The notes under the pieces were generated by a model. That model saw only the letters and a program-made list of their open reading frames with translations, searched no databases and had not been told where the DNA came from. From Siphonodentalium dalli (lineage: Eukaryota > Mollusca > Scaphopoda > Gadilida > Siphonodentaliidae), in NCBI GenBank assembly GCA_032622095.1, contig CP136063.1:209423934-209487933 (forward strand): a stretch of 64,000 nucleotides of DNA. Reading direction: 5' to 3'. Made by a program: the position numbers and the translations under genes. This document shows positions 7,120-58,036 of the stretch, piece after piece. Each line of letters starts with the position of its first letter. Within the stretch, counting starts at the first letter, position 1.

Positions 7120-8044
7120 TTAGTCCTTGTTGAGGAGTAACTTTCTTAGATTTAGTTCGGTTATGAGACTGGAGTTACTGATACGGGTTAAAGTTCGGTC
7201 CGCCAGTTCTTGAAGCCTTTGTTTTATGTATGGGACGTCTGCAGTCAAATGAAGGGCAGAAATAGGTGTTGACCTTATTTCGAAAAGGGCTCTTCTAAGT
7301 GCTTCATTTTGGGCCCGCTGCATTCTGCATAGGTTTGTTTGACTGCATTTTGAAGTAACTATTGCCCCGTATTCCATGACTGGGCGAATGAATTGTTTAT
7401 ATAATTTTATTAGGGTGCTTGGGTTTACCCCCCGTGCCCCGAAGTCTCGTTAGGAGTGCGGTTCTTTGTAAAGCTTTAGTTGAAATATTCTTAATATGCT
7501 TTTTAAGTCTGAAGTTCTCATCTAGAGTGAATCCTAATAGAGTTGCTTCTTTATTTTGTTTTATTGGTTCGTTAAATAGCGTGAGTTTTGGCTCTGATCT
7601 ATGAGTTAGGTTACCAAATACTACCAACTGTGTTTTATTTGCATTTAGTTTTATTCTCCATTTGGAACACCATTTTTCAAGTTCTGTGAGTTGTTTTTGC
7701 AGTCTAAGTTCAATTAATTTATTTCCTTTTGCTAGTGTCCATATGCCCATGTCGTCTGCAAATTGTGAAGCTTGTACATTATGTGTAGACTCTAAAGGTA
7801 TATCGTTTACGTACATTAAAAAAAGGAGAGGACTTAAGACTGACCCCTGGGGGGTACCGGCTTTAAGGTTGACTGTTTCGGAAATTTCATCATTTATTTT
7901 AACCGCTATATTTCTGTGTGTTAAGAACGATGATAGAAGTCTAACTATTTTTTTGTGGTAGTTCTGTGCGTGTTCTGAGTTTGTATCTGAGCCCATTGTG
8001 CCATACAGAATCAAAAGCTTTTTCAACGTCGAGGAATATGGCGT
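7120..8044 (-). pseudogene. 5'-truncated non-LTR retrotransposon reverse transcriptase, Jockey/CR1-like, two frameshifts
   Basis: This encoded the C-terminal half of a LINE ORF2, which copies its RNA into DNA at a nicked chromosomal target. Read on the minus strand, visible blocks in order are FLDVEKAFDSVWHNGL (RT motif A, first catalytic Asp, about 8036-7990), AGTPQGSVLSPLLF (template/primer grip region, about 7850-7810), FADD (catalytic Asp pair, 7762-7751), KWRIKLNANKTQLVVFG, a thumb-like RPVMEYGAIV and QNEALRRALF, and a stop at 7120. One frameshift separates motif A from the AGTPQGS frame (about 7980); a second lies in the C/G-rich tract near 7432-7440, between RLRGTGG and KLYKQF. There is no endonuclease domain, since the copy is cut off upstream of motif A where the minisatellite begins. 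Clade assignment is by eye; Jockey, CR1 or I are all possible. It is dead. Confidence 0.9.
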
Positions 8045-8150
8045 ATATTCGCGATAATGTGGCGTACTTATACGCTCTGGTATACGGCGTGTATTCTCGG
8101 TAATATATACGACGTACTTGAGCACAAGTATACGGCGTATATTTGCTTCT
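8040..8150. repeat. Minisatellite of tatacggcgtatatt units (right block)
   Basis: Three diverged units are visible: cgtatattcgcgataatgtggcgtactta, cggcgtgtattctcggtaatat and tatacggcgtatatttgc. The left block of the same family is at 5408-5480. The junction with the LINE RT lies in ggaatatggcgtatattcgc, so the LINE's truncated 5' end abuts the array here. Confidence 0.7.
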
Positions 8151-8154
8151 CGGC

Positions 8155-8345
8155 ATATCGGATAAGATCAAAGTGCAGTATATATCAGAGCCCCACTGGC
8201 GGCGCTCGGTGTCGCTATGCTTTGATCGAGCCCATGATGTGTGGTACGTCTCTAAGGGAGATTTCAATGACAATGACGGACAGACTTCGGGCTTGGGAAC
8301 GGCCGGCGGGCCCCTGATGGGCACATTGGCCATCTCGTAAGGGTG
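8155..8345. other. GC-richer segment with overlapping unrecognised ORFs
   Basis: The sequence between the minisatellite and a G tract (8358-8366) is open on both strands for 60-130 codons. It contains ggcggcgctcggtgtcgc and gaacggccggcgggcccc. None of the translations is recognised, and the ORFs overlap antisense, so no gene is called. Confidence 0.3.
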
Positions 8346-10560: not shown

Positions 10561-11340
10561 ATAATTAAGTGGTCCTGCTAATTTGCTACGATGCTGGTGG
10601 GTCCTGCTCAATTCATGTGAGACTGGTAAAGCAAAGCGATGATGTTGATACAAATGTATATACCGTTATTTTGTTTAAAGTTGTCATTTTCTCGTATCTG
10701 CAGGGGGAGGGGTCAAAAGTATTTTTCCGGTCAAGAATGACGGGGTGGTGGGTGATCAAGGGGTCCCCAAAAGCATTCTTTCCGCAGCTCAAACTTTTTT
10801 CCCTCGATTTATATTTACTCTTTTTAGTCTTACAACTTAGGAATAATGTTCGTTAACATCCACATTACTTGCAAATAGTCAGTACTTAGTATCTTAGTAA
10901 ATTAATATTACTGTAAGCAAATGACCGTGTTGGTTTTTTCAAACCGGCATAATTGAGATGGCTATCCCTGCCGTTTTGCAAATCATTAAAATATTAATAT
11001 TAAAATATATTTAAACATCTATGTTCTAGAATGTTTCATATATACAAACACTGCATGACTTTTGCTCAAACTTGAGCTCGGATTAGCCAAACACCGCAAA
11101 AGTGACAACTTTAGGAAAAATAAGCGTACGTTTTCTTAACAACATCGCGACATAACCTACCAATATCATAGACATTCAACAGGACCCACCAGCATCATAG
11201 AAATTCAACAGGACCCACCAGCATCATAGCAATTCAACAGGACCTACCAGCATCATAGCAATTCAACAGGACCCACCAGCATCATAGCAATTCAACAGGA
11301 CCCACCAGCATCATAGCAACTTAGCAGGATAATTTAACCA
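10561..11340. repeat. Foldback unit ending in a 29-bp minisatellite
   Basis: About six direct copies of the 29-bp unit catcatagcaattcaacagg-acccaccag run from about 11160 to 11334. One inverted partial unit, tgctacgatgctggtgggtc, lies at about 10576-10595, so the two ends of a 0.78-kb segment are complementary (aattaagtggtcctgctaa on the left against the complement of ttagcaggataatttaa on the right). A TIR element with internal tandem repeats fits, as in HINE-type non-autonomous Helitron-like elements or foldback transposons. The ORF at 10569-10856 is not recognised. Confidence 0.6.
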
Positions 11341-11569
11341 AGTGAATATAACAAGACTAACTGACAACTATAAGGTTTGATTCAAGTTTGTTTTTATATA
11401 GAGCTCATCGTTATTCAATCGTATATATTATATAGGTATATGCTATATATCGCGACACTGTCTGTTGATGAAAGGCCGCTCATTTTGGGTTACTTTCACA
11501 TGACTACTCGACAAATATAAGCCACACAACCATGCAGATAAGTAACTGAAAAATGTCCTATATGCACGA

Positions 11570-12075
11570 ATGGGGTCACCCTCGTAGATTACAAAATATC
11601 AGATACAGGGACGTGGAGATAGGGGTTGAGACTTTGGTCAAAATGTTCAACAGTTGAAAGTGTAATTCCTAGCACAATTATACACCATATATAGGTTGAA
11701 ATTGTTCTCATTGCTTCGTATTCAACATATCCTCGTGCGAATAGGTTCACATAGGTTCGTATTGGGCTTAATTGATTTTGAAATAAGCCTATATAGGACT
11801 TATTCCCGTTATTCCGTTGAATGGCGCGGGCCGCAGTGAAAACACATTATAAAGAGTTTTCATCTGGTAAATTGTATAGATGAAAACGTAGATAAAATAG
11901 TACCTATATTAGCTTCTTTTGAATTAAACTAAGCTATAAATGGGCTTATTTTGAACGTCACGTTTACGCCCATATAGAGCGCATTTTTCCTAAAATAAGC
12001 TCTATATGGGCGTAAAAATCGATATTCATAATAAACCCGTATTTTGCTTATTTTCAGGAGAACAGGCTGTCGTAT
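11570..12075 (+). repeat. Dispersed repeat family G (copy 1)
   Basis: Shared blocks with 44279-45440 in the same order are: tttggtcaaaatgttcaacag with the nearby ggttgaaat; gaatggcgcgggccgcagtg followed by aaaacacattataaagag; cgcccatatagagcgcat; and tgcttattttcaggagaacaggctg. The 44-45 kb copy is longer, so one copy has indels. An internal inverted pair (acgcccatatagagcgcat / ataagctctatatgggcgt, 11966-12014) forms a hairpin. The 87-codon ORF that runs off its end (12044-12307) is unrecognised. Confidence 0.6.
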
Positions 12076-16719: not shown

Positions 16720-17091
16720 GTGGCAGTTTGTATGTATAATTGTTTTATTTCGACATTTGCGTCGTTTTGGTGGTCAGTGCTGTTTCTGATTTGTGACGCC
16801 ATCATGTGCGTATGCACCAATGTTGGATTTTCATTATTCGTATTTATATGTTCATGTATTCATATATTTATTGTCATGGACCTTAGTGGTTTACACCACA
16901 TGCTTGGGGTCAGTTGTGTGGATTACATGTCTATTCTTAAAGCCATTTTGCAATTATTTTATATTTATACTATTTGTCTTCGCTATGTGTGTTCTTGTGT
17001 GGCTCACATTCATATGGATAATCCACTTGGATGTGAGTCATATGCATTGTATGGGAGGCCAAATTCACATTTAATAATGTTTTGTGCTTAA
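16720..17091 (+). other. 123-codon hydrophobic ORF inside the 3.84-kb element
   Basis: The translation is rich in F, I, L, C and V and could form membrane segments, but a second ORF (16793-17074) overlaps it in another frame with similar composition. That is typical of T-rich non-coding DNA. Its 3' end runs into the inverted repeat shared with 18226-18390. I recognise no family. Confidence 0.12.
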
Positions 17092-17206
17092 GCGCAAATA
17101 GGGCATTTACGCTTAAGCGTAATTAATTACGCTTAAGCGAAATTAATTGCGCTTAAGCGCAATCAATTGCACTTAAGCGCAATCAATTGCGCTTAAGCGT
17201 AATTGT
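17030..17206. repeat. Self-complementary satellite of gcttaagcgcaattaatt units (left arm)
   Basis: Six units of about 20 bp alternate the palindromes GCGCTTAAGCGC and AATTAATT, preceded by ggaggccaaattcacattta. The whole arm is inverted relative to 18226-18390, so it can pair both within each unit and with the distal arm. Confidence 0.8.
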
Positions 17207-17279
17207 GACTACTATCTAATTAACCTACCCAAAAACTATTAGCATGACCTGGTGTATCACCTAGCAACACAAGATGAGC

Positions 17280-17940
17280 ATTGAGCTAATTTTAACCTGT
17301 ACTCAACAGTCAACTGTGAGTTTGTGTTCAACAATGAGAATCCCTAATTACATATTATCAGCATCCCTCTATCCAAAGAATTGATGTCTCCTTCCCGGAA
17401 CTCTAGTATTTTTTTGTATGATGTTTTTAATGTATTTTTGCACAAAATTTAGCCTTTACTATGGTAATATCCTATACATGCATGCGGTGTCACTGCATGA
17501 GGGCTTTCTTACCCCATACAGTGATGCTCTAATTAATCGACTTCTTAACCACAGCATAATTATGGGTAACTTTTCAGGATTTAGTCGGAAATATGGCTTG
17601 TTGCCATTCATCGAAAAGCTCTCGAGCCATATTTCCGACTAAATCCTGAAAAGTTATCCATAATTCTGCTGTGGTTAAGGAGTTGATTAATTAGAGCATT
17701 ACTGTATGGTTTACTTATTGACTTAAATCAGGGGGAAAAACCCTATTTTCATATTATCAACATCCCTGTCCAAAAAATGGTGTGTAATTACTGAAGCTTT
17801 GGTGTCTCAGTCCTGGAGCTCTAGTTTTTCTTATTAAATCAGCATCTCTTGCACAAATCTATAATACTTCCATGATCATATAGTGTGAATGTGGTGTCAC
17901 CGAGGGCTTTCTTCCCTCATATGCTGTGCCTGTATACTCG
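17280..17940. repeat. Diverged duplication flanking a MITE
   Basis: The blocks catattatcagcatccct...gatgtctcc...ggaactctagt...ggtgtcactgc...gagggctttcttacc (17350-17513) are repeated with divergence at 17750-17923. The family A MITE sits at the end of the first copy. Confidence 0.6.
17519..17704. mobile_element. Tc1/mariner-type MITE, family A (copy 3)
   Basis: 186 bp with CAGTGATGCTC/GAGCATTACTG ends between TA dinucleotides (17517-17518, 17705-17706). It shares the stem ggatttagtcggaaatatgg with copy 1 but has a shorter right inner arm. It is nested in the 3.84-kb unit and so is younger than it. Confidence 0.85.
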
Positions 17941-17944
17941 AAAA

Positions 17945-18085
17945 TTGAAGAAAATCAATGTCGCCCCGACTAATACAGAAAGTAATGCTAATGCAAGTAG
18001 CCCCAACTAATATATACCGAAGATAATATAATGCTATCACGAGTCGCTCCAACTAAAACAGAAGTTGATGCTATTGCAAGCCAGC
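17945..18085. repeat. Degenerate tandem repeat, about 50 bp
   Basis: Three units share gtcgccccgactaatacag, agccccaactaatatatac and gtcgctccaactaaaacag, each followed by a taatgcta-like block and gcaag. Confidence 0.55.
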
Positions 18086-18225
18086 CATTTTGATAAAGAA
18101 GTTGGGCTAGCTCCCTACCCATCCAAACCAATGAAACCAAGAGGTGATATGTCAATAGGAGTTAATGCTAAGTTATGGAGAAACCTATTTATTCACCAGG
18201 GGTGTTTTGTTACATATAACCATGA

Positions 18226-18390
18226 ATTGCGCTTAAGCGCAATTAAATGCGCTTAAGCACAAATAATTACACTTAAGCGCAATTAAATGCACTTAAGCGT
18301 AATTATTTGCACTTAAGCGCAACTGATTGCGATTAAGCACAATTAATTATTAAATGTGAATTTGGCCTCCCATAGCATTGTATATTTTAT
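18226..18390. repeat. Self-complementary satellite of gcttaagcgcaattaatt units (right arm)
   Basis: About six diverged 20-bp units (gcgcttaagcgcaattaaat and variants), followed by ttaaatgtgaatttggcctcc. This is the inverse of the left arm at 17030-17206. Confidence 0.8.
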
Positions 18391-18568
18391 GTAGTTTTAT
18401 GTTGTCTTTGGTTCTTTGTCTTTGTGGTCAATGTACATTGATATTTCTGTGTGTCCAATTGGTATTTGACATTTATTTCATCCCCATTTATAACTTGCAT
18501 TATTCTTTGACAAACTGTCCCCGCAATGTCAGCAGGAAAATACATTATATGGTGTTCTTATAGCATCC

Positions 18569-18571
<3 letters not shown>

Positions 18572-18644
<73 letters not shown>

Positions 18645-18672
18645 ATATATATATATATTGTATATAATATAG
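18572..18672. repeat. (TA)n microsatellite
   Basis: A long uninterrupted AT/TA dinucleotide run (about 18572-18640), then two tgtatatata variants. The 68-codon ORF across it is an artefact of the repeat. Confidence 0.95.
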
Positions 18673-19434
18673 TATGTAATATATTATATATAGTTTATTA
18701 AGTTGACTATTTTGTGAGCATAAGCGTATTGTCAAAATAATTGACGTTATATTAACTACAGAACGGGTGAGCTACTTCATTTGTATCCCGGCATGGCTTG
18801 TATTATAATTTCTTAACAAATAATCACCAATGTGGCTTTATACGAGGTTGTTTTAGTAGGATTTCAGCCAGCTGAGTTTTCAGTACAGCACCGGAATAAC
18901 GATTATTCAACTCACAAAGCACCGGAATGACTCAGTAAACCACCGGAATACACATGTAGACCTATTTTATGGTCGTTTTCTTCGATTTGGTATGTTATTA
19001 ATGATATTTTCATGTTGCATTGACTTCAGGAATGTATTGAGGAACAGGCATTCAAAGTTACAATATACAGTATTAAGTCGCTAATACGCCGTTGAAGTGA
19101 CGAATTTCCCAAAAAACGCAAAATATCGAGTAATTTATTTATATTACTGGGCTGTATGCCAATATAGTGGCATAATATTACAACATATATTACTCATCTT
19201 CTTTGGCACGTCCATCTCGTATTCATTCGTCCAATATTTGCGTTTAAAACATTACTAAAACGCGTGTGTATTACCCACGCATGTCATCTCTGTCGCACAA
19301 TGACAAAATAAGCAAAATGTGACAGAACACCGGAATATTTGCTCGCTAAGCACGTAAATATTGCTCGGGAGAGCACCACATTCCTAGGAATAGATCCTCC
19401 AGTGGTTTTAATAGTGCAATATAATAAATAGAAT

Positions 19435-28927: not shown

Positions 28928-29323
28928 CGCTTTACCCAACAGAAGGGCCCTGTGCCAATGCATTCTCTTATATATGCGAGTCGACCATAGGTCGCCTCGC
29001 ATATATAAGAGAATGCATTGGCTTAACACATTAAAAATTATAAAATTGTTAAAGAATGTAAGAAAAAATGGTAAAAAGTGTTAAAAAAAGATTTTTTTTT
29101 AGGCCAATGCATGCATTCTCTTATATATGCGAGGCGACCTATGGTCGACTCGCATATATAAGAGAATGCATTGGCACAGGGCATAACTGTAACTATCACA
29201 ATGTGGTCAAGGAGCTGGTTCCAATGATATCCATATTTGTATGGTTCTATTGAGACAGACCGAAGATATTTTTGGCTGTTGAAGCTTTATTTGGCCGGTT
29301 TTGGCCGGTTTGTTGGGTAAAGG
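28928..29323 (+). mobile_element. piggyBac-type (TTAA) MITE, family D (copy 1)
   Basis: TTAA (28924-28927) precedes cgctttacccaaca. The right end ggccggtttgttgggtaaagg is the inverse, but the outermost bases and TTAA are mutated. The interior has two copies of a 70-bp palindromic module built on aatgcattctcttatatatgcgag, placed as mirror images around a spacer ending in tttttttt. It is nearly identical to 57644-58036. Confidence 0.85.
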
Positions 29324-33600: not shown

Positions 33601-33860
33601 CCCTTTACCCAACAAACCGGCCAAAAACGGCCAAATAAAGCTGCAACAGCCTAAATTATCTTGGGTCTGTCTCAATAAAACCATACAAATATGGAATCTT
33701 TTTTTAACACTTTTTACCATTTTTTCTTACATTCTTTAAAATTTTTATAATTTTTAATGTGTTAAGCCAATGCATTCTCTTATATATGCGAGGCGACCTA
33801 TGGTCGACTCGCATATATAAGAGAATGCATTGGCACAGGGCCGTTCTGTTGGATAAAGGG
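33601..33860 (-). mobile_element. piggyBac-type (TTAA) MITE, family D (copy 2, intact target site)
   Basis: CCCTTTACCCAACA...TGTTGGATAAAGGG between TTAA (33597-33600 and 33861-33864). It is in reverse orientation relative to copies 1 and 3 and has only one of the two palindromic modules (33770-33838), an internal deletion of about 130 bp. Outside it sits family C sequence on the left. Confidence 0.92.
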
Positions 33861-33919
33861 TTAATGAATGGGACTCCTTTTGTACGTTTATTTATCTGTT
33901 GTCTGCTTATGTTACCAGT

Positions 33920-38752: not shown

Positions 38753-40500
38753 ATGCCTCTATTGTGTGCTCATAAATTCTTTCCATCGTCGACATTAATG
38801 TCGATTTACGGAAGTAAAAGAGGCAGTTGTCGTGCTGTCTGTCCATTTATACTCAAACCATCGACCATGTTCATTCTAAATGGAATCCACGTGTCTTGAC
38901 TAAACATGAAGAAATTATCTCTGAGACTGGCTATTACAGCAATCCGATGGTCGACTGTTGTATCGATCGAAGGCTGAAATCGGAAGCAGGTGCGGCGGAA
39001 CAAGCCTGATGGATCGCAGCAATTCAGACAACACGGGCGCGTGCGAAGCCATTCAAAAACACGGGTTCCATTCGATTGAACAGACACAAACCGGAAGTAG
39101 TTATCCACAAAAGTCGAAGCGGGAAATGGAAATGGAAAAATCGAAGTCACAGCTGAGGCGAACTGAGTTTGCAGTCACGAAATGAGGCAATTGATTGAAG
39201 TGGAGTCACGTTTTGTCAGCAGGGATTGGTACTCAATGAGGACCACGTGACTGTTTCACAGATATAGAATACATTTGATTCAAACTGCAAGCCATAATTC
39301 AGTCCCCTGCTACGCTGGCCTGACCATTGCCTTCACGTATATATACGTAATTAATGTTTTCTTGACAAGTCTTGTCGATCACAATTCATTGTGATTTGAT
39401 CTATAGATAATTTCAAATTGAACATGGACAGCTCGGTTCCTCAGAATTTGAGAATACAGAATAAATTATAATCGAGCAAAGTCTTAAAGAAAACAGATAT
39501 ATTTCCTCCCTCACATTATTGTACATGATGGCAGTGGTCAGACTAGCGTAGCGATGGGACTGAACTCTGCCTGGCAGTTTATATTTGAATAAGTCAATGC
39601 TCTTGTTGAACAGCTATAATATGGTACGCCTGAAAGAACAGTCCAAAATGTCAGACCGGTAGATGATTCTGATTTCAAAGTTCAAACCATTGCAACAATC
39701 CATGTCGCCGTGTGTATATATGTTTATTACATGATCCTACCCTTATTCCATTCAATAAACCCATTCTATAAACTGTGATATTAAACGTTCGTTCAATAAC
39801 AGGAAATAGTGCCTTTGACTTCCGGTTTGTCGTCTGTTTACATTCCGTACGCTACGTCTCAAAATACTATGGCTTCGAATATTTTTCCAACAAACTATAA
39901 TGAACGAAGAGGTTGAAAAGTTATGTCAATAAATATGCGCCATTAAATACGCCAAAGAGTCTTTATTTGTCTGTGACTATTTCTTTACGCGGACAAACAA
40001 CGAATAGTTACGTGAAACGTCACCGCATGCATTATAGAAGCCGATGTTAGTTTCGGTCCAATTTGTTGATTTAAGTATGTTTTGTCGAGATTTTGGATCA
40101 TGTAATAAATAGAATTAACAACTCGTCCACAGTGTGTAATGGATGTTAGAAAACTCGTCCAGTAAATTAGGTCTGGACTCGTTTGGTAAATTCCGCTATA
40201 AACTGGTGTCTCGTTTTAGATCCTCTTTGTATGCTTAAGTTCAAATGGAACGAAGTCTGTGGTGCTGATACAATCCGCATCCGTCGTTCATCCGCGAAGA
40301 TTGTGTGTCCGTTAACCATGTGTTTTAAGTATCTTCAGCATCCAATCGCATAACGATATCATATCTGGATTGGGTGGCCTTGTGTGACTGGGATTCACAT
40401 TTTAACTGGGGTATCTCGATTGAGTATGATCGAAACCAGGGGATGTGCTATTTTCCGAAGAAAAAATTACAATGAAGCCTCCAAAGAATCTCCAAAACCA
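38380..40500. other. Mostly unassigned stretch
   Basis: Apart from the outer inverted-repeat arm at 38670-38752, nothing is recognised. Antisense ORFs at 38806-39150 (minus, 114 codons) and 38827-39185 (plus) overlap each other; neither is recognised. Confidence 0.45.
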
Positions 40501-40512
40501 GCGTAATTTGAC

Positions 40513-41280
40513 TTTAAGCTATTCGTAATTACTATCAATAGACACCTTTCGCATACTGAACGACTACTGATAAGAATTACGAATAGCTTTATTAGTTGCA
40601 TAATGAACTACTACGGATAAGAATTACGGATAGCTTATATTAGTCGCATAAAGAACTACTACGGATAAGAATTACGAATAGCTTATAGTAGTCGCATAGT
40701 GAACTACTATTGATAAGAATTACGAATAGCTTATAGTAGTCGCATAATGAACTACTACTGATAAGAATTACGGATAGCTTATATTAGTCGCACAATGAAC
40801 TACTACTGATAAGAATCACGGATAGCTTATATTAGTCGCATAATGAACTACTACTGATAAGAATTACGAATAGCTTATATTAGTCGCATAAAGAACTACT
40901 ATACTGGTAAGAATTACGAATAGCTTATATTAGTCGCATAATGAACTACTACTGGTAAGAATTACGAATAGCTTATATTAGTCGCATAATGAACTACTAC
41001 TGGTAAGAATTACGGATAGCTTATATTAGTCGCATAATGAACTACTACTGATAAGAATTACGAATAGCTTATATTAGTCGCATAATGAACTACTACTGAT
41101 AAGAATTACGAATAGCTTATATTAGTCGCATAATGAACTACTATACTGGTAAGAATTACGAATAGCTTATAGTAGTCGCATAATGAACTACTACTGATAA
41201 GAATTACGAATAGCTTATATTAGTCGCATAATGAACTACTGCGGATAAGAATTACGAATATAGCGTACAGAAGTCGTATA
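40513..41280. repeat. 48-bp satellite array, about 15 units, with an inverted stub
   Basis: Direct units of 48 bp, consensus gataagaattacgaatagct then tatattagtcgcataatgaa then ctactact, run from about 40563 to 41280. Variants (gata/ggata/ggta; cgaata/cggata; an extra TA at units 7 and 12) group the units into sub-types. A reversed partial unit, aagctattcgtaattact, lies at 40515-40532, so the left edge folds back on the array. There is no spacer diversity and the units are direct, so this is not CRISPR. Confidence 0.95.
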
Positions 41281-41284
41281 TTTT

Positions 41285-42300
41285 TCGTTTTCGCAGAAAT
41301 TAGTACTAACTATCGTTTGTGAGAAAATAGTGCCTTCTTGCCACTCGCAGTTAGGTGATATGATTATGTTTGTTGTGATTAGTTTGTATTTTCATGTAGT
41401 TGTGTTGTTATCAGGGCATGCATACCCAGTGGTGGCAGATATATTATATAATATCTCTGGGTGGTAGTCTCGATGATCGCAGACAAATCTCGTGTGTCCA
41501 TGCTTGTCTTCTCGAAACCGTAATCGTAACTACGGATACGACAAAACGACAACTGGTAGACAGAACACAGATTCTAGTGACGTCGTACTCTATTCACAAT
41601 TCTTACCATTACCGTGGGATGTGAGGATTATTTTGACTCGGCTCACGACTCGTAAAAATAATCATTGGCATCGATCTTAGGAGAAACCCGCACACTACTC
41701 AGCACAAGCACATTATATATAATACATGCCATAAGACATATACCATTTGAAAGAGGAAGCTCTAAAACGTTGTATTATCAACTTATATCCGGTGTATATA
41801 AAAAAAACATGTTGTTTTTGTTGAGGTACCGACGTGTTTTTTGTGCTTAAGTTTCATCTCGACTGTACTGAAAAAGTCTATTATTTTGAATGGAAGGGGA
41901 ATAACTCTATATCTTAGTTTAAATTCTTTTGCATACTGCGAGCGAAACGGGGGAAATGTTTCTATGATTTCAGCTATGTTCTATTACTCTATGTACACCT
42001 TCTGGGACACAGACGTTCCAAATGGTGATGCATGAATTATAGTATTTTAATCATATTTTATGTCATCGATTATTATTAAAACCGTATATCAAGGCACTAT
42101 AAAAAGGACATAATCGGGGACTCGAAAATTAAATTGGCCTTTAACTACATGTAGTGTCTATATATACACCGACCATTAATTTCGTTCGCCGTGTATAATA
42201 ACACTTGGGGTGTCACCTTGACAAATTTACCTCAAACAGGGCTGCATTAAAAAGGAATTATCGAAGAGTGTATTTTGAAATAAATCGACATTTAGACATG
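41285..42300. other. Unassigned stretch
   Basis: AT-rich with short unrecognised ORFs. No splice-supported exon was seen. Confidence 0.5.
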
Positions 42301-45440: not shown

Positions 45441-46125
45441 CCGCATTGACTAGTTTAAAATGGGTTGACTTTAGACAATGCAGCTAGGGGGTATGATTAC
45501 CGCGGTGGGTTACGCTTATATAGTTCTCATTTGGGGCTGTTGATTTGTACAAAAAACACCAAGGGCATTGATTTTGTTGAAAGTATACTATGACGTCAAT
45601 ATCTATATGAAGGTTCTTTAATGTCAGATGTAGAGGTTGTCGCGGGGGGGGGGGTAATTCCTCAATTCTGAAGACAAGAGCACGAGAAGCCCATTCGTAT
45701 ATGCTGCATTCAAAAGTGCCATATATACTCACACCATAGCATGCAAATACTACAGCGTCAACACGGGTCTAAGAGTGTTAAGAAATGCGAACACTGTTGA
45801 TTTTTCGGATGTCATGTCGCATTTTCTTAGAATAACGTCAGTCTTCAAGTCTTCATGCAACGCATTCATATAGCGTGAACAATCCAAAACACTCGACTAG
45901 TTTGACATTTGTATTTCTTTACACCGGCATAAATTACAATCATGTTCGAAATAATGAGAAACACAATCTCGCACGCTAGAGCCTTTTAATTAACTTCTTA
46001 TGACCCGTTGCGTGGATAATTATACAAGGGTTCAAACCCGCCATTTATATTCATCGTCTTCACAATACATTCCCGAGGTTCTTAAATCAATCAATAAGGA
46101 TCGATCCAACAAAGGCTGAACCATG
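45440..46125. other. Unassigned stretch
   Basis: A G tract at 45641-45652. No supported gene. A tRNA T-arm-like ggttcaaaccc at 46029-46039 has no matching A-box. Confidence 0.5.
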
Positions 46126-46129
46126 TATA

Positions 46130-48735
46130 AGGGTTTCATTAATTACTGAGATATATCACGGTGTGATGTGACAAGTATACTATAAACTACCCGAGGCATT
46201 CTGGGCACTTGATACGACGTTGCATAAGAGTCGGCTTGTTGAAAGAGCCCCCAAGATGATGCGCGGTCATCTCAACAAGGTAGTGATTATTTTATAAATA
46301 TCATTTACGAAATCCTTCTAAAACCATCTATTCGTTCAATAAAATCAGGGCTTCTCGATTTCGGTGTGACGAAAAAAAAAAACCAGAACCATTGCTTAAT
46401 ATCTAGGAGTTGTTTTCGGGGACAGAGAGATGTGACTCTACCCATAATTCGGGAAACCCACCCATATATACTAGCAAATAAAAAGGTGCTATTAACCCAC
46501 AACTTGCCAGATCGGCATAATGTTCATCATCTCGTAAAAGAATTGACCCGTCTGAACCGCGCACCCCCTGGAATTCTAAATATATAGGCAGATGGGGTAC
46601 GCTGTTCAATCTATCCACACAGAGACACTAGCACACCCTGCGGATGTCAAATACGGCAATTCAATTTTCGTCGAATATATTTCCCGGCAATTGAACCTAT
46701 ACCCGCCCGGACCACTCATGAAAGCTTTGTCGAGGACTGAAAGGTGGATCTGGGCTTCCTTAATTACTGACATATATCACGATGTGATGTGACAAGTATA
46801 CTATAAACTACCTGAGGCATTCTGGGTACTTGATATGACATTGCGCAAGATTCGGCTTATTGAAATAGCCGCTCAGATGATACGGTCATCTCAACAAGGT
46901 AGTAATAATTTGATCAATATCAATTACGAAATCCTTCACATGAAACCATATACACGTTCGATAAAATCAGGGCATCTCGATTTGGGTGTGACTAAAAAGA
47001 AAACCCAGAACCATTCCTGAATATCTCGGAGCTGTTTTCGGGGAGAGATAAATGTGAGTGTACCCATAATTCAGGAAACCCACCCGTACTAGCACAGAAA
47101 AGGGTGCTATTAATCCACAACTTGCCAGATCGGTATAATTTTCATCATCTCGTAAAAGAATTGACCCGACTGAACCGCGCACCATCTGGAATTCTAAATA
47201 TAGAGGCAGATGGGGTACACTGTTCAATCTATCCACACAAGGAAACTGGCACACACCCTGTCAAAAGTGTGGCAATTCAATTTTCGTTGAACATGTTTCC
47301 CGGTAATCGAACCTATAATATATACACGTCCGGACCACTCATGAAAGCTTTTTCGAGGAAGGGTGGATATGGGTTTCCTTAATTACGGACACATATCACG
47401 GTGTGATGTGACAAGTACTATAACTATACCTGAGGCATTCTGGGTACTTGATATGACATTGCGCAAGATTCGGCTTGTTGAAAGAGAGATCCGAATGATG
47501 CGGTCATCTCAACACGGTAGTAATTATTTCATCAATATCATTTACGAAATCCTTCACGGGAAAACATATATACGCTATACGTTCGATCAAATCAGGGCAT
47601 CTCGCTTTGGGTGTGACTAAAAACCCTCCCGAACCATTCCTGAATATCTAGGAGCTGATTTCGGGGACAGATCCTGGAATTCTAAATATATAGGGGGTGG
47701 GGTGCACTATTCAATCTCTCCACACAAGGACACTAGCTCACACCCTGTCTGTGAAACTACGACAATTAAATCTTCGTCGAATATGTTTCCCGGCAATAAT
47801 ATTGAACCTACCCGTCCGGACCACTCATACATATCTATATGTAGGAGCTTTTTTCGAGGACAGAAATGTGGATATGGGTTTCTTTAATTACGGAGATATA
47901 TCACGGTGTGTTGTGACAAGTACTATAAACTACCTGAGGCATGCAGTCCGGGTACTTGAAATGACGTTACGCAACTGTCGGCTTGTTGAAAGAGCCCCTC
48001 AGGTGATACGGTCATCTCAACAAGGTAGTAATTATTTGATCAATATCATTTACGAAATCCTTCACGGGAATCCATATATACGTTCGATAAAATCATGGTA
48101 TCTCAATTTGGGTGTGATTAAGAACCATCCCGATCTATTCCTGAATATCTAGGAGCTGTTTTCGGGGACAGAGATGTGATTGTACCCATAATTCAGGAAA
48201 CCCACTCATACTAGAACAATGTGCTATTAACCCACAACTTGCCAGATCGATATAATTTTCATCATCTCGTAAAAGAATGGACCCGCCTGAACCGCGCACC
48301 TCCTGGAATTCTAAATATATAGGCAGATGGGGTACACTGCATATGTTCAATCTATCCACACAGGGACACACCCTGTCTGTGAAACTGCGACCCTTAAATC
48401 TTCGTTTAAAATGTTTCCCGGCAATAATAATGAACCTATACCCGCCAGGACCACTCATGACTATCTAGGAGCTTTTTCGGGGACAGAAAGGTGGGTATGG
48501 GGTTTCCTTAATTACGGAGATATATCACGGTGTGGTGTGACAAGTACTGAACTATACCTGAGGCATTCCAGGTCCTTGATAGGTCGTTGCGCAAGAGTCG
48601 GCTCGTTGAAAGAGAGCTCCGGATGATGCGGTCATCTCAACAAGGTAGTCATTATTTGATCAATATCATTTACGAAATCCTTCATGGGAAACATATGGTT
48701 ATACGTTCGATCAAATCAAGGCATCTCGATTTACC
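46130..48735. repeat. Tandem array of about 620-bp units (about 4.2 copies)
   Basis: Units begin with attactgagatatatcacgg (46142), and recur at 46763, 47383, 47887 and 48509, giving spacings near 620, 620, 505 and 620. The third unit lacks about 115 bp. Shared landmarks are cctgaggcattctgggtact, cggtcatctcaacaaggtag, tttacgaaatccttca, ttttcggggacag, caacttgccagatcgg, tcgtaaaagaattgacccg and ctggaattctaaatatatag. Both strands stay open for 60-100 codons in several units: plus LPDRHNVHHLVKELTRLNRAP; minus VRGSxGSILLRDDExYxDLASCGLIA (conserved in units 1, 2 and 4). No family is recognised. Confidence 0.9.
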
Positions 48736-50589: not shown

Positions 50590-50740
50590 TACACTTGGTG
50601 GTTTGCGCCCCAAAATACACATACATGTAATAATATTCGGTTTTGAATTTTTAGCGGTATCGAAATAGGTCGATAAGCACTTGAACCACCTTTCTACGAG
50701 CATTGTATATCAACGAAGGGAGCATTGAAGTCATACACAA
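50590..50740 (+). repeat. Dispersed repeat shared with 52895-53020
   Basis: catgtaataatattcg, cggtatcgaaataggtcgataag, ttgaa and cctttctacgagcat recur at 52920-53005 (catgtagtaatattcg, cggtatcgaaatatgtcgataag, cctttctacgatcat). Confidence 0.65.
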
Positions 50741-51774
50741 TACAACTTTTTAACACGATGTTTGGGTACAAAATAAAAAGCAGACATTTCCACGGCATGG
50801 AACGGAAAAGAGCGTTCGCTTTTAGTCTATTCCTGATATGGTAGAATAAAAGAGCATATGAAGGCGGTATATTAATATTTCGCGTATGTATCTGTATAGT
50901 TTATACCTCCTTCCAAATTATGCCATGTCCGTTTAATGTGTGTTGTATTTTGTATAATGTACTTGTATAGATGAGCTCTCTTCCTATATATGTCGCTATA
51001 TCTCTCCATTATAAAACCAATGTTTCGATCCCATTTACATAATCAAATCACCTCCTTCTTAATCTCTGGTCAATTCCGGCATCTGGCACAGGATATTTTT
51101 TTCATAGATCAGGAATTCTCTCTCAAAGATGTCAAATATCGCAGAAAATTTGTAATTCTCCATATGTGACATAGCCCTAGATATATGATACATGACGGTG
51201 GGCGTATAGCCGCACGGGCAAGACATGTGTAATTGTATTATTTATGTAGAAAGAATCGAGACAGTCAATTCAGTTTTAGAGTGTGCACAAAGCTACCGAA
51301 ATTCGATTTGGTGAGTGGGTAAAGTTAGAGCTGGGCACCAGATGGAACTCAATTATCAAAAGTCGGTCTAATGGTGTTAGCTTTTGGCGATTGGTCACAG
51401 ATAGTAACATTATTACCATATGGGGCCAGATGGTGATGCGATTGATCAGAAACCCGGTTTGTGTGCATATAGGGATGTTGGGGGTCATTGTCACACGAAG
51501 CCAATGTGTTAACGTGGTTTCTTGTTTTTCAGATCAAGCTGCTGTGCTACAATTATTTTCTAAAATTAGCACCTGCGTGCCCAAATGAAGGAATTCAGCT
51601 GATGAAACTGTGCATATATATGTCACAGAATTACTCACCGGAGTCAGCTGCCCGAGTCATAAATTTATCAAATGATTCGCGACTTTTCTTCAGTATAGAG
51701 CGTACAATAAAGAGCGTTTATGTTAGTGTGGTATTCATGTTATGGTGTACATAAAGAGCGTTTAGCTCACGTAC

Positions 51775-51880
51775 AAGATTTTATTGCAATAACACCTCAA
51801 CATGGGCAGTTGCAAACATATAACATATAATATAAAACATACATGTACATGAATTAAACAAAAACCCGACTCAGAAATCA
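51775..51880 (-). mobile_element. LINE 3'-end fragment
   Basis: On the minus strand, tgtttgcaactgcccatg then ttattgcaataaaatct matches the 3' UTR of the LINE fragment at 24500-24620. The rest of the element upstream is not recognisable. Confidence 0.5.
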
Positions 51881-52198
51881 TTTATATACAGTATGCTCAC
51901 TCATAAGTTGTTCTTATAATTAGTATGCACATATAGGTGTCTATGACATTGCCACATGTTGTCCGAGTATACGAAGCCGCGTGATATGTACTTCGTTTAT
52001 TTATCGACAAATCTTATCATTCCGTCCATGTCCTATAACTTAGAGCTATAGAACATTATCTGAAAGTTTATGCATGGTATGGTAAACATGAATAACGTTA
52101 TCCAGAATATTTAAGCGTTTCTGTCGCTTTAATATTAAAGATTCCCTGTCCGATTTGACACCATAAAACAACCAATTTCACGTCCTATATACCAGAAA

Positions 52199-52676
52199 TT
52201 ATGGAATCCTATTAGGGCCACTTGCTAATGGCGCTTTCGGCGCGATGCGCCGAAAGCGACAAAAAGTGCGCCATTAGTAACGTGCCGAAAGCGCCGAAAG
52301 CGACAAAATATGCGCCGTTACGGCGCACTATTTGTCGCTTTCGGCGCACTTGTTGTCGCTTTCGGTGCTTTCGGCGCGCGCGCCGAAAGCGACAAATGCG
52401 ATATTAGCGCAAGTTTCGGCGCGCCGAAAGCGACAAAATGTGCGCCGTATAACGGCGCACATTTTGTCGCTTTCGGCGCGTTACTAATGGCGCACTTTTT
52501 GTCGCTTTCGGCGCGCGCCGAAAGCGCCATTAGGCATACTATTAGGTCCACTCCCTAATGGCGCGCGCCGGAAGCGACAAAAAGTGCGCCATTAGGGTAT
52601 GTTTCGGCGCGGGCCGAAAGCGACAAAAAGTGCGCCGAAAGCGCCATTAGCAAGTGGCCCTAATAGGATTCCATAA
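52199..52676. mobile_element. GC-rich multi-hairpin foldback element
   Basis: A 478-bp unit with perfect outer arms, TTATGGAATCCTATTAGGGC through cacttgctaatggcgc, and the inverse at the right end. GAAA lies immediately outside both ends (52195-52198, 52677-52680). The interior is a mosaic of the word gcgccgaaagcgacaaaa and its complement in alternating orientation, giving several nested stems (for example tgcgccgttacggcgca; tgcgccgtataacggcgca). It is strikingly GC-rich against AT-rich flanks. The 61-82-codon ORFs on both strands are translations of the word repeat, not proteins. Confidence 0.9.
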
Positions 52677-52894
52677 GAAATAACTGTATCGGACCCATGA
52701 GCACATCAATATGAGGTTTTCGTGGCCAGATATCGACTCTCAAAATAGGATGTTTTAACACGTTTTTAATTTGTGTCAGCCTATAGCACAAATTATAATG
52801 ACCGTATATGCTCCCATCGCCCAAAAACTGTAGATTATAAATAGCGTTCTTCATTGATATCCTTTGCTCTCGTTTTCAACATTAAAGCCACATG

Positions 52895-53240
52895 GCGCTT
52901 TGCGCTCCGAAATACACCTACATGTAGTAATATTCGCCTTTTGGATATTTCCCGGTATCGAAATATGTCGATAAGATCTTGAAGTATACCTTTCTACGAT
53001 CATTATATATGTCGGGGGCTTCACCTGCCTTTCCTATATATATACCGGTACAACAACCGTAAACAAATAATATCCGACCCATCATACATATTCCCCGAAA
53101 TAGAAGAAGCAAACAAATAATGTAGACTCTCCACCACCACGGACAACTCCGACTTCACCCGAAGACTCCGAAATACACCGAGTTGGAGCATTCATCTGTC
53201 TTTCCTACAACGACCGCAAAACTATTATCCGAACCAGCTT
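52895..53240. repeat. Internally duplicated dispersed repeat
   Basis: Besides the 50.6-kb match, it contains two related blocks: tgcgctccgaaatacacc...tgcctttcctatatatatac...aacaaataatatccgaccc and actccgaaatacaccgag...tgtctttcctacaacgacc...aaactattatccgaacc. Confidence 0.5.
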
Positions 53241-54930: not shown

Positions 54931-54963
54931 CAAGCCAGAATGAATTGTAACTGGCAAAAGGTT

Positions 54964-57527
54964 ACACCAAATATAAAAAATTATCCCCCTTGGTGTGCTG
55001 TCACCCACACTCAAGTCAGCATAAAATCACATCTGGCAGCTGAATGGTTGATTATGATTGGGGTAAAATTAATGCTAAAACAAGATAAAATCATAGCCAT
55101 CATGGAAATATTATACCTAAATGAATATTGATCCAGAGTGGGTGAAATAATTAACCTGGCATTTAATGGGGGGTATGTTTGAAAATTTGGTGATAATTTT
55201 TTGTGCGGAATTAGGGTAGTATCAAAAGCGGTACATTTAAAAACTGTCAATTGACATTGACCTATTAATTGTTTTTGGGTCATATTGGGTCCGAAGGGTC
55301 ATTCTTCAAAATTGACTATGTTAGAAAGTTCCAGCATTCACATTGAATCGAGCATAGCCCCGGACATTAACACTGTCGCCTATGGAGAATAATTGGCGTA
55401 CTGTAACCTATAGCAATAAATGGTCGTTTTTCAGATCTCTGCCCTGGAACATGTCCCGTGATCATTATCCTCAGAAAACAAATTGGGAGCTTGAAGCACA
55501 CAGATTACTAAGGCACAGGAGCATTAACCCCTCCCATACCATTTCCGCTTCTCGTTGTAAAACCGAAAATCGCCATTTTCGGCCTATGATTATTTTCGAA
55601 AATTTGGTGGGTGCGCCCAATGTGAACCCCAAGTGCTCCCAATTCGAATGGCGAATCGAATGACATATTTTCTGGAAGTGATATCTACAAGCTATCAGAT
55701 CGTCCACATGTATGTACGTCGTCACTGTTTACTTTGCCAAAATGCAGCTTCAATGAAAAAAAATCACATTCAAATCAAGATATTTTTTAGCACATTCAGA
55801 TACGGGTGGTGGCAGAAGAGGGTTAATAAAGTAAGAACACAGACACGTTTCGAATCAAAGTTGTTTATTTTGACGTCGTGTATATAAATGGCCGCAATTT
55901 AATATCGTTTGGGCGGCTTTATTATATGTCCATTGCTCACTATAGGTTATAGTACACCAAATATAAAAAATTATCCCCCTTGGTGTGCTGTCACCCACAC
56001 TCAAGTCAGCATAAAATCACATCTGGCAGCTGAATGGTTGATTATGATTGGGGTAAAATTAATGCTAAAACAAGATAAAATCATAGCCATCATGGAAATA
56101 TTATACCTAAATGAATATTGATCCAGAGTGGGTAAAATAATTAACCTGGCATTTAATGGGGGTATGTTTGAAAAGTTGGTGATAATTGTTTGTGCGGAAT
56201 TAGGGTAGTATCAAAAGCGGTACATTTAAAAACTGTCAATTGACATTGACCTATTAATTTTTTTTGGGTCATATTGGGTCCGAAGGGTCATTCTTCAAAA
56301 TTGACTATGTTAGAAAGTTCCAGCATTCACATTGAATCGAGCATAGCACCGGACATTAACACTGTCGATCGCCTATGGAGAATAATTGGCGTACTGTAAC
56401 CTATAGTAAGAAATGGTCGTTTTTCAGATCTCTGCCCTGGAACATGTCCCGTGATCATTATCCTCAGAAAACAAATTGGGAGCTTGAAGCACACGATACG
56501 ACAGATTACTAAGGCACAGGAGCGTTAACCCCTCCCATACCATTTCCGCTTCTCGTTGTAAAACCGAAAATCGCCATTTTCGGCCTATTGCGGGCCCATG
56601 CATGCCCCTTTAATGAACGTGAGACCACCTTTTGGGGCACCCGACATTCCAGATGAATGCAAAGGCGGATTTATCGGGATTGAGCACGACGTCGGCGTAA
56701 ATCATTGTTTCGTTGTGGACCACACTCTAACACATGATGCAAAATCGGTCCAGTATCTGGTCAAACAAAGTCGAATTGCCCCTTTAAGATGATAGTTTGA
56801 CAAAAAAGGACAACCCTGGAAATTTGCAGAATTGGTTTAACGATCTACCGCGCCCAAATTTCCGCCAATAAATGCATTCTTGTGACGGGCAAATTTGGGT
56901 TTTCTGTCGATTATTTTCGAAAATTTGGTGGGTGCGCCCAATGTGAACCCCAAGTGCTCCCAATTCGAATGGCGAATCGTATGACATATTTTCTGGAAGT
57001 GATATCTACAAGCTATCAGATCGTCCACATGTATGTACGTCGTCACTGTTTACTTTGCCAAAATGCAGCTTCAATGAAAAAAAATCACATTCAAGTCAAG
57101 ATATTTTTTAGCACATTCAGATACGGGTGGTGGCAGAAGAGGGTTAATAAAGTAAGAACACAGACACGTTTCGAATCAAAGTTGTTTATTTTGACGTCGT
57201 GTATATAAATGGCCGCAATTTAATATCGTTTGGGCGACTTTAGTATATGTCCATTGCTCACTATAGGTTATAGTACACCAAATATAAAAAATTACCCCCC
57301 TTGGTGTGCTGTCACCCACACTCAAGTCAGCATAAAATCACATCTGGCAGCTGAATGGTTGATTATGATTGGGATAAAATTAATGCTAAAACAAGAAAAA
57401 ATCAAAGCCATCATGGAAATATTATACCTAAATGAATATTGATCCAGAGTGGGTGAAATAATTAACCTGGCATTTAATGGGGGTATGTTTGAAAATTTGG
57501 TGATGATTTTTTGTGCGGAATTATAGG
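54964..57527. repeat. Tandem duplication of 0.99/1.32-kb units (2.2 copies)
   Basis: Units start at acaccaaatataaaaaatta, at 54964, 55954 and 57275. Units 1 and 2 are almost identical where they align. Unit 2 carries about 330 bp more (about 56588-56915) between gccattttcggcctat and gattattttcgaaaatttgg. Unit 3 stops after about 250 bp, near 57527. A 56-codon frame beginning TPNIKNYPPWCAV and ending EILYLNEY is identical in units 1 and 2 and has two changes in unit 3. A minus-strand frame MTTYIHVDDLIACRYHFQ is also conserved with a different C-terminus in each unit. None is recognised. Confidence 0.9.
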
Positions 57528-57643
57528 GTAGGTTTGAGTCACAATGACCAACTTAGCTTGGTCACTGGGGAGGTACGTGTTTCTGCAATTATTTCCAAGA
57601 TGAACCAGATGATATCATATCCACAATCAGAGACCGAGTTTAA

Positions 57644-58036
57644 CCCTTTACCCAACAGAACGGCCCTGTGCCAATGCATTCTCTTATATATGCGAGTCGA
57701 CCATAGGTCGCCTCGCATATATAAGAGAATGCATTGGCTTAACACATTAAAAATTATAAAATTGTTAAAGAATGTAAGAAAAAATGGTAAAAAGTGTTAA
57801 AAAAAAGATTTTTTTTAGGCCAATGCATTCTCTTATATATGCGAGGCGACCTATGGTCGACTCGCATATATAAGAGAATGCATTGGCACAGGGCATAACT
57901 GTAACTATCACAATGTGGTCAAGGAGCCGGTTCCAATGATATCCATATCTGTATGGTTCTATTGAGACAGACCGAAGATATTTTAGGCTGTTGAAGCTTT
58001 ATTTGGCCGGTTTTGGCCGGTTTGTTGGGTAAAGGG
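57644..58036 (+). mobile_element. piggyBac-type (TTAA) MITE, family D (copy 3, full length)
   Basis: 393 bp, CCCTTTACCCAACA...TGTTGGGTAAAGGG between intact TTAA sites (57640-57643 and 58037-58040). It has the two mirror-image modules based on aatgcattctcttatatatgcgag, and is almost identical to copy 1. This is the best reference for the family. The antisense ORFs inside are palindrome shadows. Confidence 0.95.

Follow-up and report, generated by a model that had tools for sequence, protein, structure and literature searches.

A GC-rich hairpin island in the genome of Siphonodentalium dalli is most likely a small gene-less transposon of the IS3EU type

The window considered here, i.e. the whole stretch of 64 kb that was analyzed, has many palindromic elements and a longest reading frame of at most 256 codons. 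A Pfam search with 10 of its 24 stop-to-stop frames of at least 110 aa returned a single match past the cut-off, a reverse transcriptase piece on the minus strand at 7400-8167 (RVT_1, E 2.5e-17), and two weak ones below it (E 0.026 and 0.081). Taken together, the reverse transcriptase piece, the limited frame length and the many palindromes give the window a eukaryotic appearance. A tRNA scan of the window returned none and Rfam gave no match at gathering score anywhere in it. Several local repeats are also present: tandem-like repeats at 46124-48732 (aligning over roughly 300-1100 bp with a similarity of about 80-85%), repeated segments at 54963-57531 whose identity of about 97-98% points to recent local duplication, and a repeat pair at 50592-50710 and 52889-53010 (82% similar), one copy of which lies about 210 bp past the element described below.

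At 52200-52675 lies an insert of 476 bp with a GC content of 55.0%, versus 34.0% (51700-52193) and 39.7% (52682-53175) in the 494 bp on either side, as the first-pass annotation had observed in singling out a GC-rich island between AT-rich flanks. The CpG observed/expected ratio is 1.84 in the element and 0.93 in the rest of the window. Its layout runs from the left end through a large imperfect palindrome (P1), a degenerate copy of the end region and a second word block (P2) to the right end (Table 1).

Table 1. Features of the element at 52200-52675 and of the second element of the same type in the window
Feature	Position	Strand	Basis
Left target site duplication, AGAAAT	52194..52199	+	exact 6-bp direct repeat
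Left terminal inverted repeat, 44 bp, starting TATGGAATCC	52200..52243	+	44/44 as the reverse complement of 52632-52675
P1, large imperfect palindrome of repeated words, CTAATGGCGC...GCGCCATTAG	52225..52533	.	self reverse-complement match
31-nt word unit GCGCCGAAAGCGACAAAAAGTGCGCCATTAG	52247..52277	+	identical to the inverted unit 52484-52514
Perfect hairpin formed by two opposed units, with a 29-bp stem and a 3-nt loop	52420..52480	.	inverted-repeat pair
Degenerate internal copy of the left end, separating P1 from P2	52533..52564	+	27/32 nt as 52203-52234
P2, second word block, CTAATGGCGC...GCGCCATTAG	52555..52650	.	
Right terminal inverted repeat, 44 bp, terminating GGATTCCATA	52632..52675	-	
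Right target site duplication, AGAAAT	52676..52681	+	exact 6-bp direct repeat
Second element of the same type, TATGGGAGG...CCTCCCATA	17050..18374	+	target site duplication GCATTG at 17044-17049 and 18375-18380
Left subterminal array of 20-bp palindromic words (CGCTTAAGCGCAATTAATTG-like)	17107..17205	+	
Right subterminal array of 20-bp CGCTTAAGCGCAATTAATTG-like words	18225..18349	+	

The element consists largely of one word of about 31 bp, present in both orientations. All 15 sites of GCGCCGAAAGCGACAAA in the window (up to 3 mismatches) fall within it, whereas 100 shuffles of the window yield 0.05 such sites on average and never more than 1. Of its length, 91% is covered by 10-mers with two or more occurrences on either strand, compared with 7% on average and 21% at most for 200 dinucleotide shuffles; the earlier description as an island of repeated words is thus upheld. 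Ten 31-nt units conform to one pattern, with starts at 52247, 52291, 52317, 52338, 52380, 52421, 52449, 52484, 52565 and 52611. The words had been said to alternate in orientation: both orientations do occur, but there is no strict alternation, the ten units running ++--++--++ and the 15 looser GCGCCGAAAGCGACAAA sites, truncated words included, running -+++---++--++++. One unit, at 52380, is divergent (15-19 of 31 nt in common with the other units); the remaining nine have 24-31 of 31 nt in common and two of them, at 52247 and 52484, are identical at all 31 positions. In a gapped alignment, P1 and its reverse complement are 79.6% alike. The longest inverted arms inside the element (53 nt at 94%) extend from one unit into the next, and further arms of 36 and 35 nt, both at 97%, are only a few bases longer than one unit. 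Since the 53-nt arms span a unit boundary, at least one block, and not just single words, has apparently been copied in inverted order.

Across 52194-52681 the junctions read AGAAAT, TATGGAATCC...GGATTCCATA, AGAAAT, so that the element itself begins and ends TATGG...CCATA. Because AGAAAT begins with A and ends with T, the inverted repeat gains one accidentally pairing base on each side, and the resulting one-base misregister in the first reading hid both the 6-bp duplication and the TA..TA ends. That reading had proposed perfect TTATGGAATCC inverted ends and a GAAA duplication: the perfect ends and the presence of a duplication stand, the register is off by one base, and the terminal inverted repeat, taken to be 11 bp, extends over 44 bp with 44 of 44 positions matching. 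The alternative of a 4-bp duplication (GAAA, with TTATGG ends) was rejected, as the 6-bp reading assigns the extra base to the duplication. The more general perception of a mobile-element-like unit made of mutually inverted words, with inverted ends and a duplicated target, was right.

These ends suggest an assignment to a superfamily. Complete IS3EU families are described as always having TA..TA ends and usually a target site duplication of 6 bp (PMC10045372), and the account of the Pucciniales (TET+) families gives 6-bp duplications, terminal inverted repeats longer than 30 bp and TAYGG..CCRTA ends (PMC12730594); for Styx, which is linked to IS3EU, 6-bp duplications are likewise described (PMC10853768). 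The element has TA..TA termini (TATGG...CCATA, at 52200 and 52675), a duplication identical in 6 of 6 positions, and inverted repeats of 44/44 bp with TATGG..CCATA ends. At 476 bp, short and non-coding, with inverted repeats and a duplicated target, it also has the makeup of a MITE. No transposase was found in it: its three ORFs of 61-82 aa consist of the words and have no Pfam match passing the cut-off (best E 0.11).

We gauged how often such ends arise by collecting all TAYGG...CCRTA pairs in the window with a spacing of 50-5000 bp, with matching ends defined as 14 bp with at most 2 mismatches. Among the 1317 pairs, 2 have an exact 6-bp duplication, 14 have matching ends and 2 have both, the corresponding means in 200 dinucleotide-shuffled windows being 0.47, 1.78 and 0; in none of the 200 was there any pair combining duplication and matching ends. 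With 0.47 pairs on average in the shuffles against 2 in the real window, the duplication alone is unremarkable, and it is the conjunction that is striking. Since shuffling destroys the palindromes of the window, a better comparison is with the 14 real pairs whose ends match: 2 of them have a duplication at 6/6, the other 12 agree at 0-2 of 6 positions. On this evidence we take the element to be an inserted non-autonomous DNA transposon of IS3EU type, with a probability of roughly 0.8. In other words, the GC-rich hairpin island is most likely a small gene-less transposon that would be mobilized by a eukaryotic IS3-like enzyme encoded elsewhere. A second copy of the family was not found within the 64-kb window, where no match longer than 27 nt lies outside the element. 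The patterns of its inverted repeat and word have no exact match in the viral_contigs and genome_contigs collections, blastn against phages gave none, and patterns of the second element have none in viral_contigs; these viral, prokaryotic and phage sequences are not collections of eukaryotic genomes, so that the absence of copies there is to be expected and says little.

The second element of the same type (17050-18374) has TATGGGAGGCCAAATTCACATTTAATAAT ends, perfect over 29 bp and imperfect beyond (92% over 48 bp). The longest ORF wholly within it has 85 codons. Its 20-bp palindromic word is centered on CTTAAG and forms arrays behind both ends (Table 1). The two elements thus follow the same plan, word arrays behind the ends, with a different word in each, and they represent separate families. 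Nested inside 17050-18374 is another palindromic element (17514-17709), which belongs to one family with 1563-1779 (about 82% alike, arms of 85-107 nt); a further arm of this family lies at 2396-2457.

The first-pass annotation had suggested comparing the folds of both strands with shuffled sequence, and the outcome is positive: as single-stranded DNA the element reaches z -31.5 on the plus strand and -26.3 on the minus strand, and as RNA (plus strand) -29.0, in each case unmatched by any of 100 shuffles. A control with 30 shuffles puts the element at z -25.9 and both flanks at 0.1; among seven other palindromes of the window, the values span -16.5 to -34.7 and two are more extreme than that of the element. 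Strong folding is hence ordinary in this window, and what sets the element apart is its internal word repetition. Coverage by 10-mers seen at least three times is 68% for 52200-52675, 58% and 45% for the two end regions in 17050-18374, and 47% for both copies of one palindromic family (28947-29182 and 57663-57894), versus 0% in 9 of the 11 other window palindromes examined. When 476-bp stretches were taken at steps of 100, coverage above 25% was seen elsewhere only near 10901-11577, 18201-18676 and 40301-41577, where two tandem arrays (11165-11319 and 40549-41260) and, from the second element, the right word array are located. The earlier view that this architecture is unlike ordinary MITEs accordingly fails for the folding and largely holds for the internal repetition. 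As side observations, the array at 40549-41260 has a 48-bp unit in 14.8 copies and also a 242-bp period, and 28947-29182 and 57663-57894 form one palindromic family with 33695-33864 (best alignments 97-98% alike), the first two with a possible 8-bp duplication, AATGCATT.

The words of the two elements were also compared with each other. Ungapped alignment gave a best score of 7, without excess over 139 random window stretches scoring 6-11 against the element; in this control, 10 of 150 draws were skipped by rule and, of the 140 scored, one (score 107) was dropped for presumed overlap with the element. Among words that recur at least three times in both elements, one wildcard being allowed, the longest is TAATNGCGCTT, with 10 specified bases. 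Among 300 column-permuted arrays none reaches 10 specified bases and 3 reach 9, in a test that covers one pair of elements and 11 of 12 word units (all except the first one on the left). The form AAGCGC[AC]ATTA occurs three times in each of the two elements and is absent from the rest of the window. A core, AAGCGCNATTA, thus appears to be common to the words of both, in excess of permuted arrays; as it was spotted by eye ahead of the test, the permutation result is suggestive only.

The following course of events would account for the element. A DDD/E transposase from an IS3EU element elsewhere in the genome would bind the ends and link them to a target site nicked at two positions 6 bp apart, and repair of the gaps would leave the AGAAAT duplication. 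Blocks of words could have been copied in inverted order when a hairpin primed template switching, in the course of replication or of gap repair; that such copying filled the element with words and gave it its foldback shape is a proposal to which we give even odds. Expansion by template switching is plausible in view of the 53-nt arms at 94%, the 79.6% self-match of P1 and the identity of the units at 52247 and 52484. For the words themselves, a parallel is offered by Galileo, whose transposase is described as binding repeats in its long terminal inverted repeats through a THAP domain (PMC3688188). By analogy, the word may hold a secondary binding site for the IS3EU transposase, with AAGCGCNATTA as the candidate core, a suggestion that we hold tentatively and somewhat short of even chances. 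A broader scenario, which we regard as rather unlikely, is that the IS3EU transposases of this lineage recognize the ends together with arrays of dyad-symmetric sites behind them that have AAGCGCNATTA as a conserved core; families would differ in the word around the core, and gene-less members would be enlarged as blocks of sites are duplicated in inverted order, ending up as little else than binding sites, a foldback strategy independent of that of Galileo.

Among known systems, IS3EU transposons share with the element the TA..TA ends, the 6-bp duplication, the TAYGG..CCRTA motif and inverted repeats longer than 30 bp, and differ from it in that 52200-52675 is without a transposase and has an interior of inverted word arrays. 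Such arrays go unmentioned in the portions of the IS3EU descriptions consulted (PMC10045372, PMC12730594, PMC8268682, PMC10853768), and a literature search found no title on word arrays in IS3EU elements, which does not prove their absence. Galileo is comparable in its internally repetitive inverted repeats near the ends, for which multiple transposase-binding sites have been proposed, but it is assigned to the P superfamily and its terminal inverted repeats exceed 1 kb (PMC3688188), whereas here the whole element measures 476 bp and has IS3EU-type ends. Tetris of D. virilis is described as a non-autonomous foldback element with internal repeats in its inverted repeats, these being tandem repeats of about 220 bp (PMC4079207), in contrast to the 20- and 31-bp words seen here. 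MITEs with internal repeats are likewise short and gene-less with inverted ends and a target duplication, but 9 of the 11 other palindromes in the window are without comparable word repetition. The combination by which foldback elements are recognized, long inverted repeats with internal short repeats, is present, the 44-bp inverted repeats continuing into inverted word blocks. At the level of an outline, 52200-52675 is thus explained as a real insertion, a gene-less IS3EU-type element with foldback-like internal arrays.

The strongest competing explanation retains the IS3EU identity and regards the words as passengers, an inverted repeat or satellite-like unit that was amplified within the element by replication slippage and template switching, with no role in transposition. 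It challenges the binding-site step alone and fits most of the data equally well; we take it to be a real contender, if a little less than an even bet. Stem-loop models have been put forward for tandem units that arise within MITEs and for their growth into satellites (PMC8268682; for Tetris, PMC4079207). The words of the two elements do differ, their plain alignment is without excess similarity, and a palindromic family lacking IS3EU ends repeats 10-mers too (the 47% noted above). Against it, both IS3EU-ended elements in 64 kb carry palindromic word arrays, when 9 of the 11 other palindromes have no 10-mer more than twice, and the shared core beats 300 of 300 permuted arrays. Improbable by comparison is membership of another superfamily, e.g. 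a foldback element of P, hAT6, MULE or Polinton kind, with a coincidental likeness to IS3EU. TA..TA ends, a 6-bp duplication and TAYGG..CCRTA together fit IS3EU, and the end motifs of other superfamilies are not known to start with TATGG. What speaks for such a membership is that foldback-like elements with internally repetitive inverted repeats are reported from the P superfamily (Galileo, PMC3688188), that Polintons are listed as also making 6-bp duplications (PMC10045372), and that hAT6 is named after 6-bp duplications, according to a title cited in PMC12730594. Preservation of the hairpins for an RNA or chromatin function, as a small-RNA source, a cruciform or a replication-pause site, would suit the very stable folds of both DNA strands and of the plus strand as RNA, but ordinary palindromes nearby fold as strongly, the window has no Rfam family at gathering score, and insertion by itself accounts for the perfect ends and the target duplication, which makes such a function highly improbable. 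Hairpin-rich repeats are difficult to assemble, but an assembly artefact of this hairpin-rich locus is scarcely credible given the insertion signature of an exact 6-bp duplication with perfect 44-bp ends and another element with the same type of ends 34 kb away.

Returning to the reading of 52200-52675 as a non-autonomous IS3EU-type insertion, its significance hinges on the role of the words. If they are transposase-binding sites, IS3EU would join Galileo and P in relying on multiple internal sites; otherwise, the element is an ordinary insertion in a palindrome-rich genome. Two elements with different words and the same plan offer a direct test of which transposase binds which word. The element also illustrates a route by which a small transposon can become an island rich in hairpins and in GC, which may be prone to breakage and to problems in assembly.
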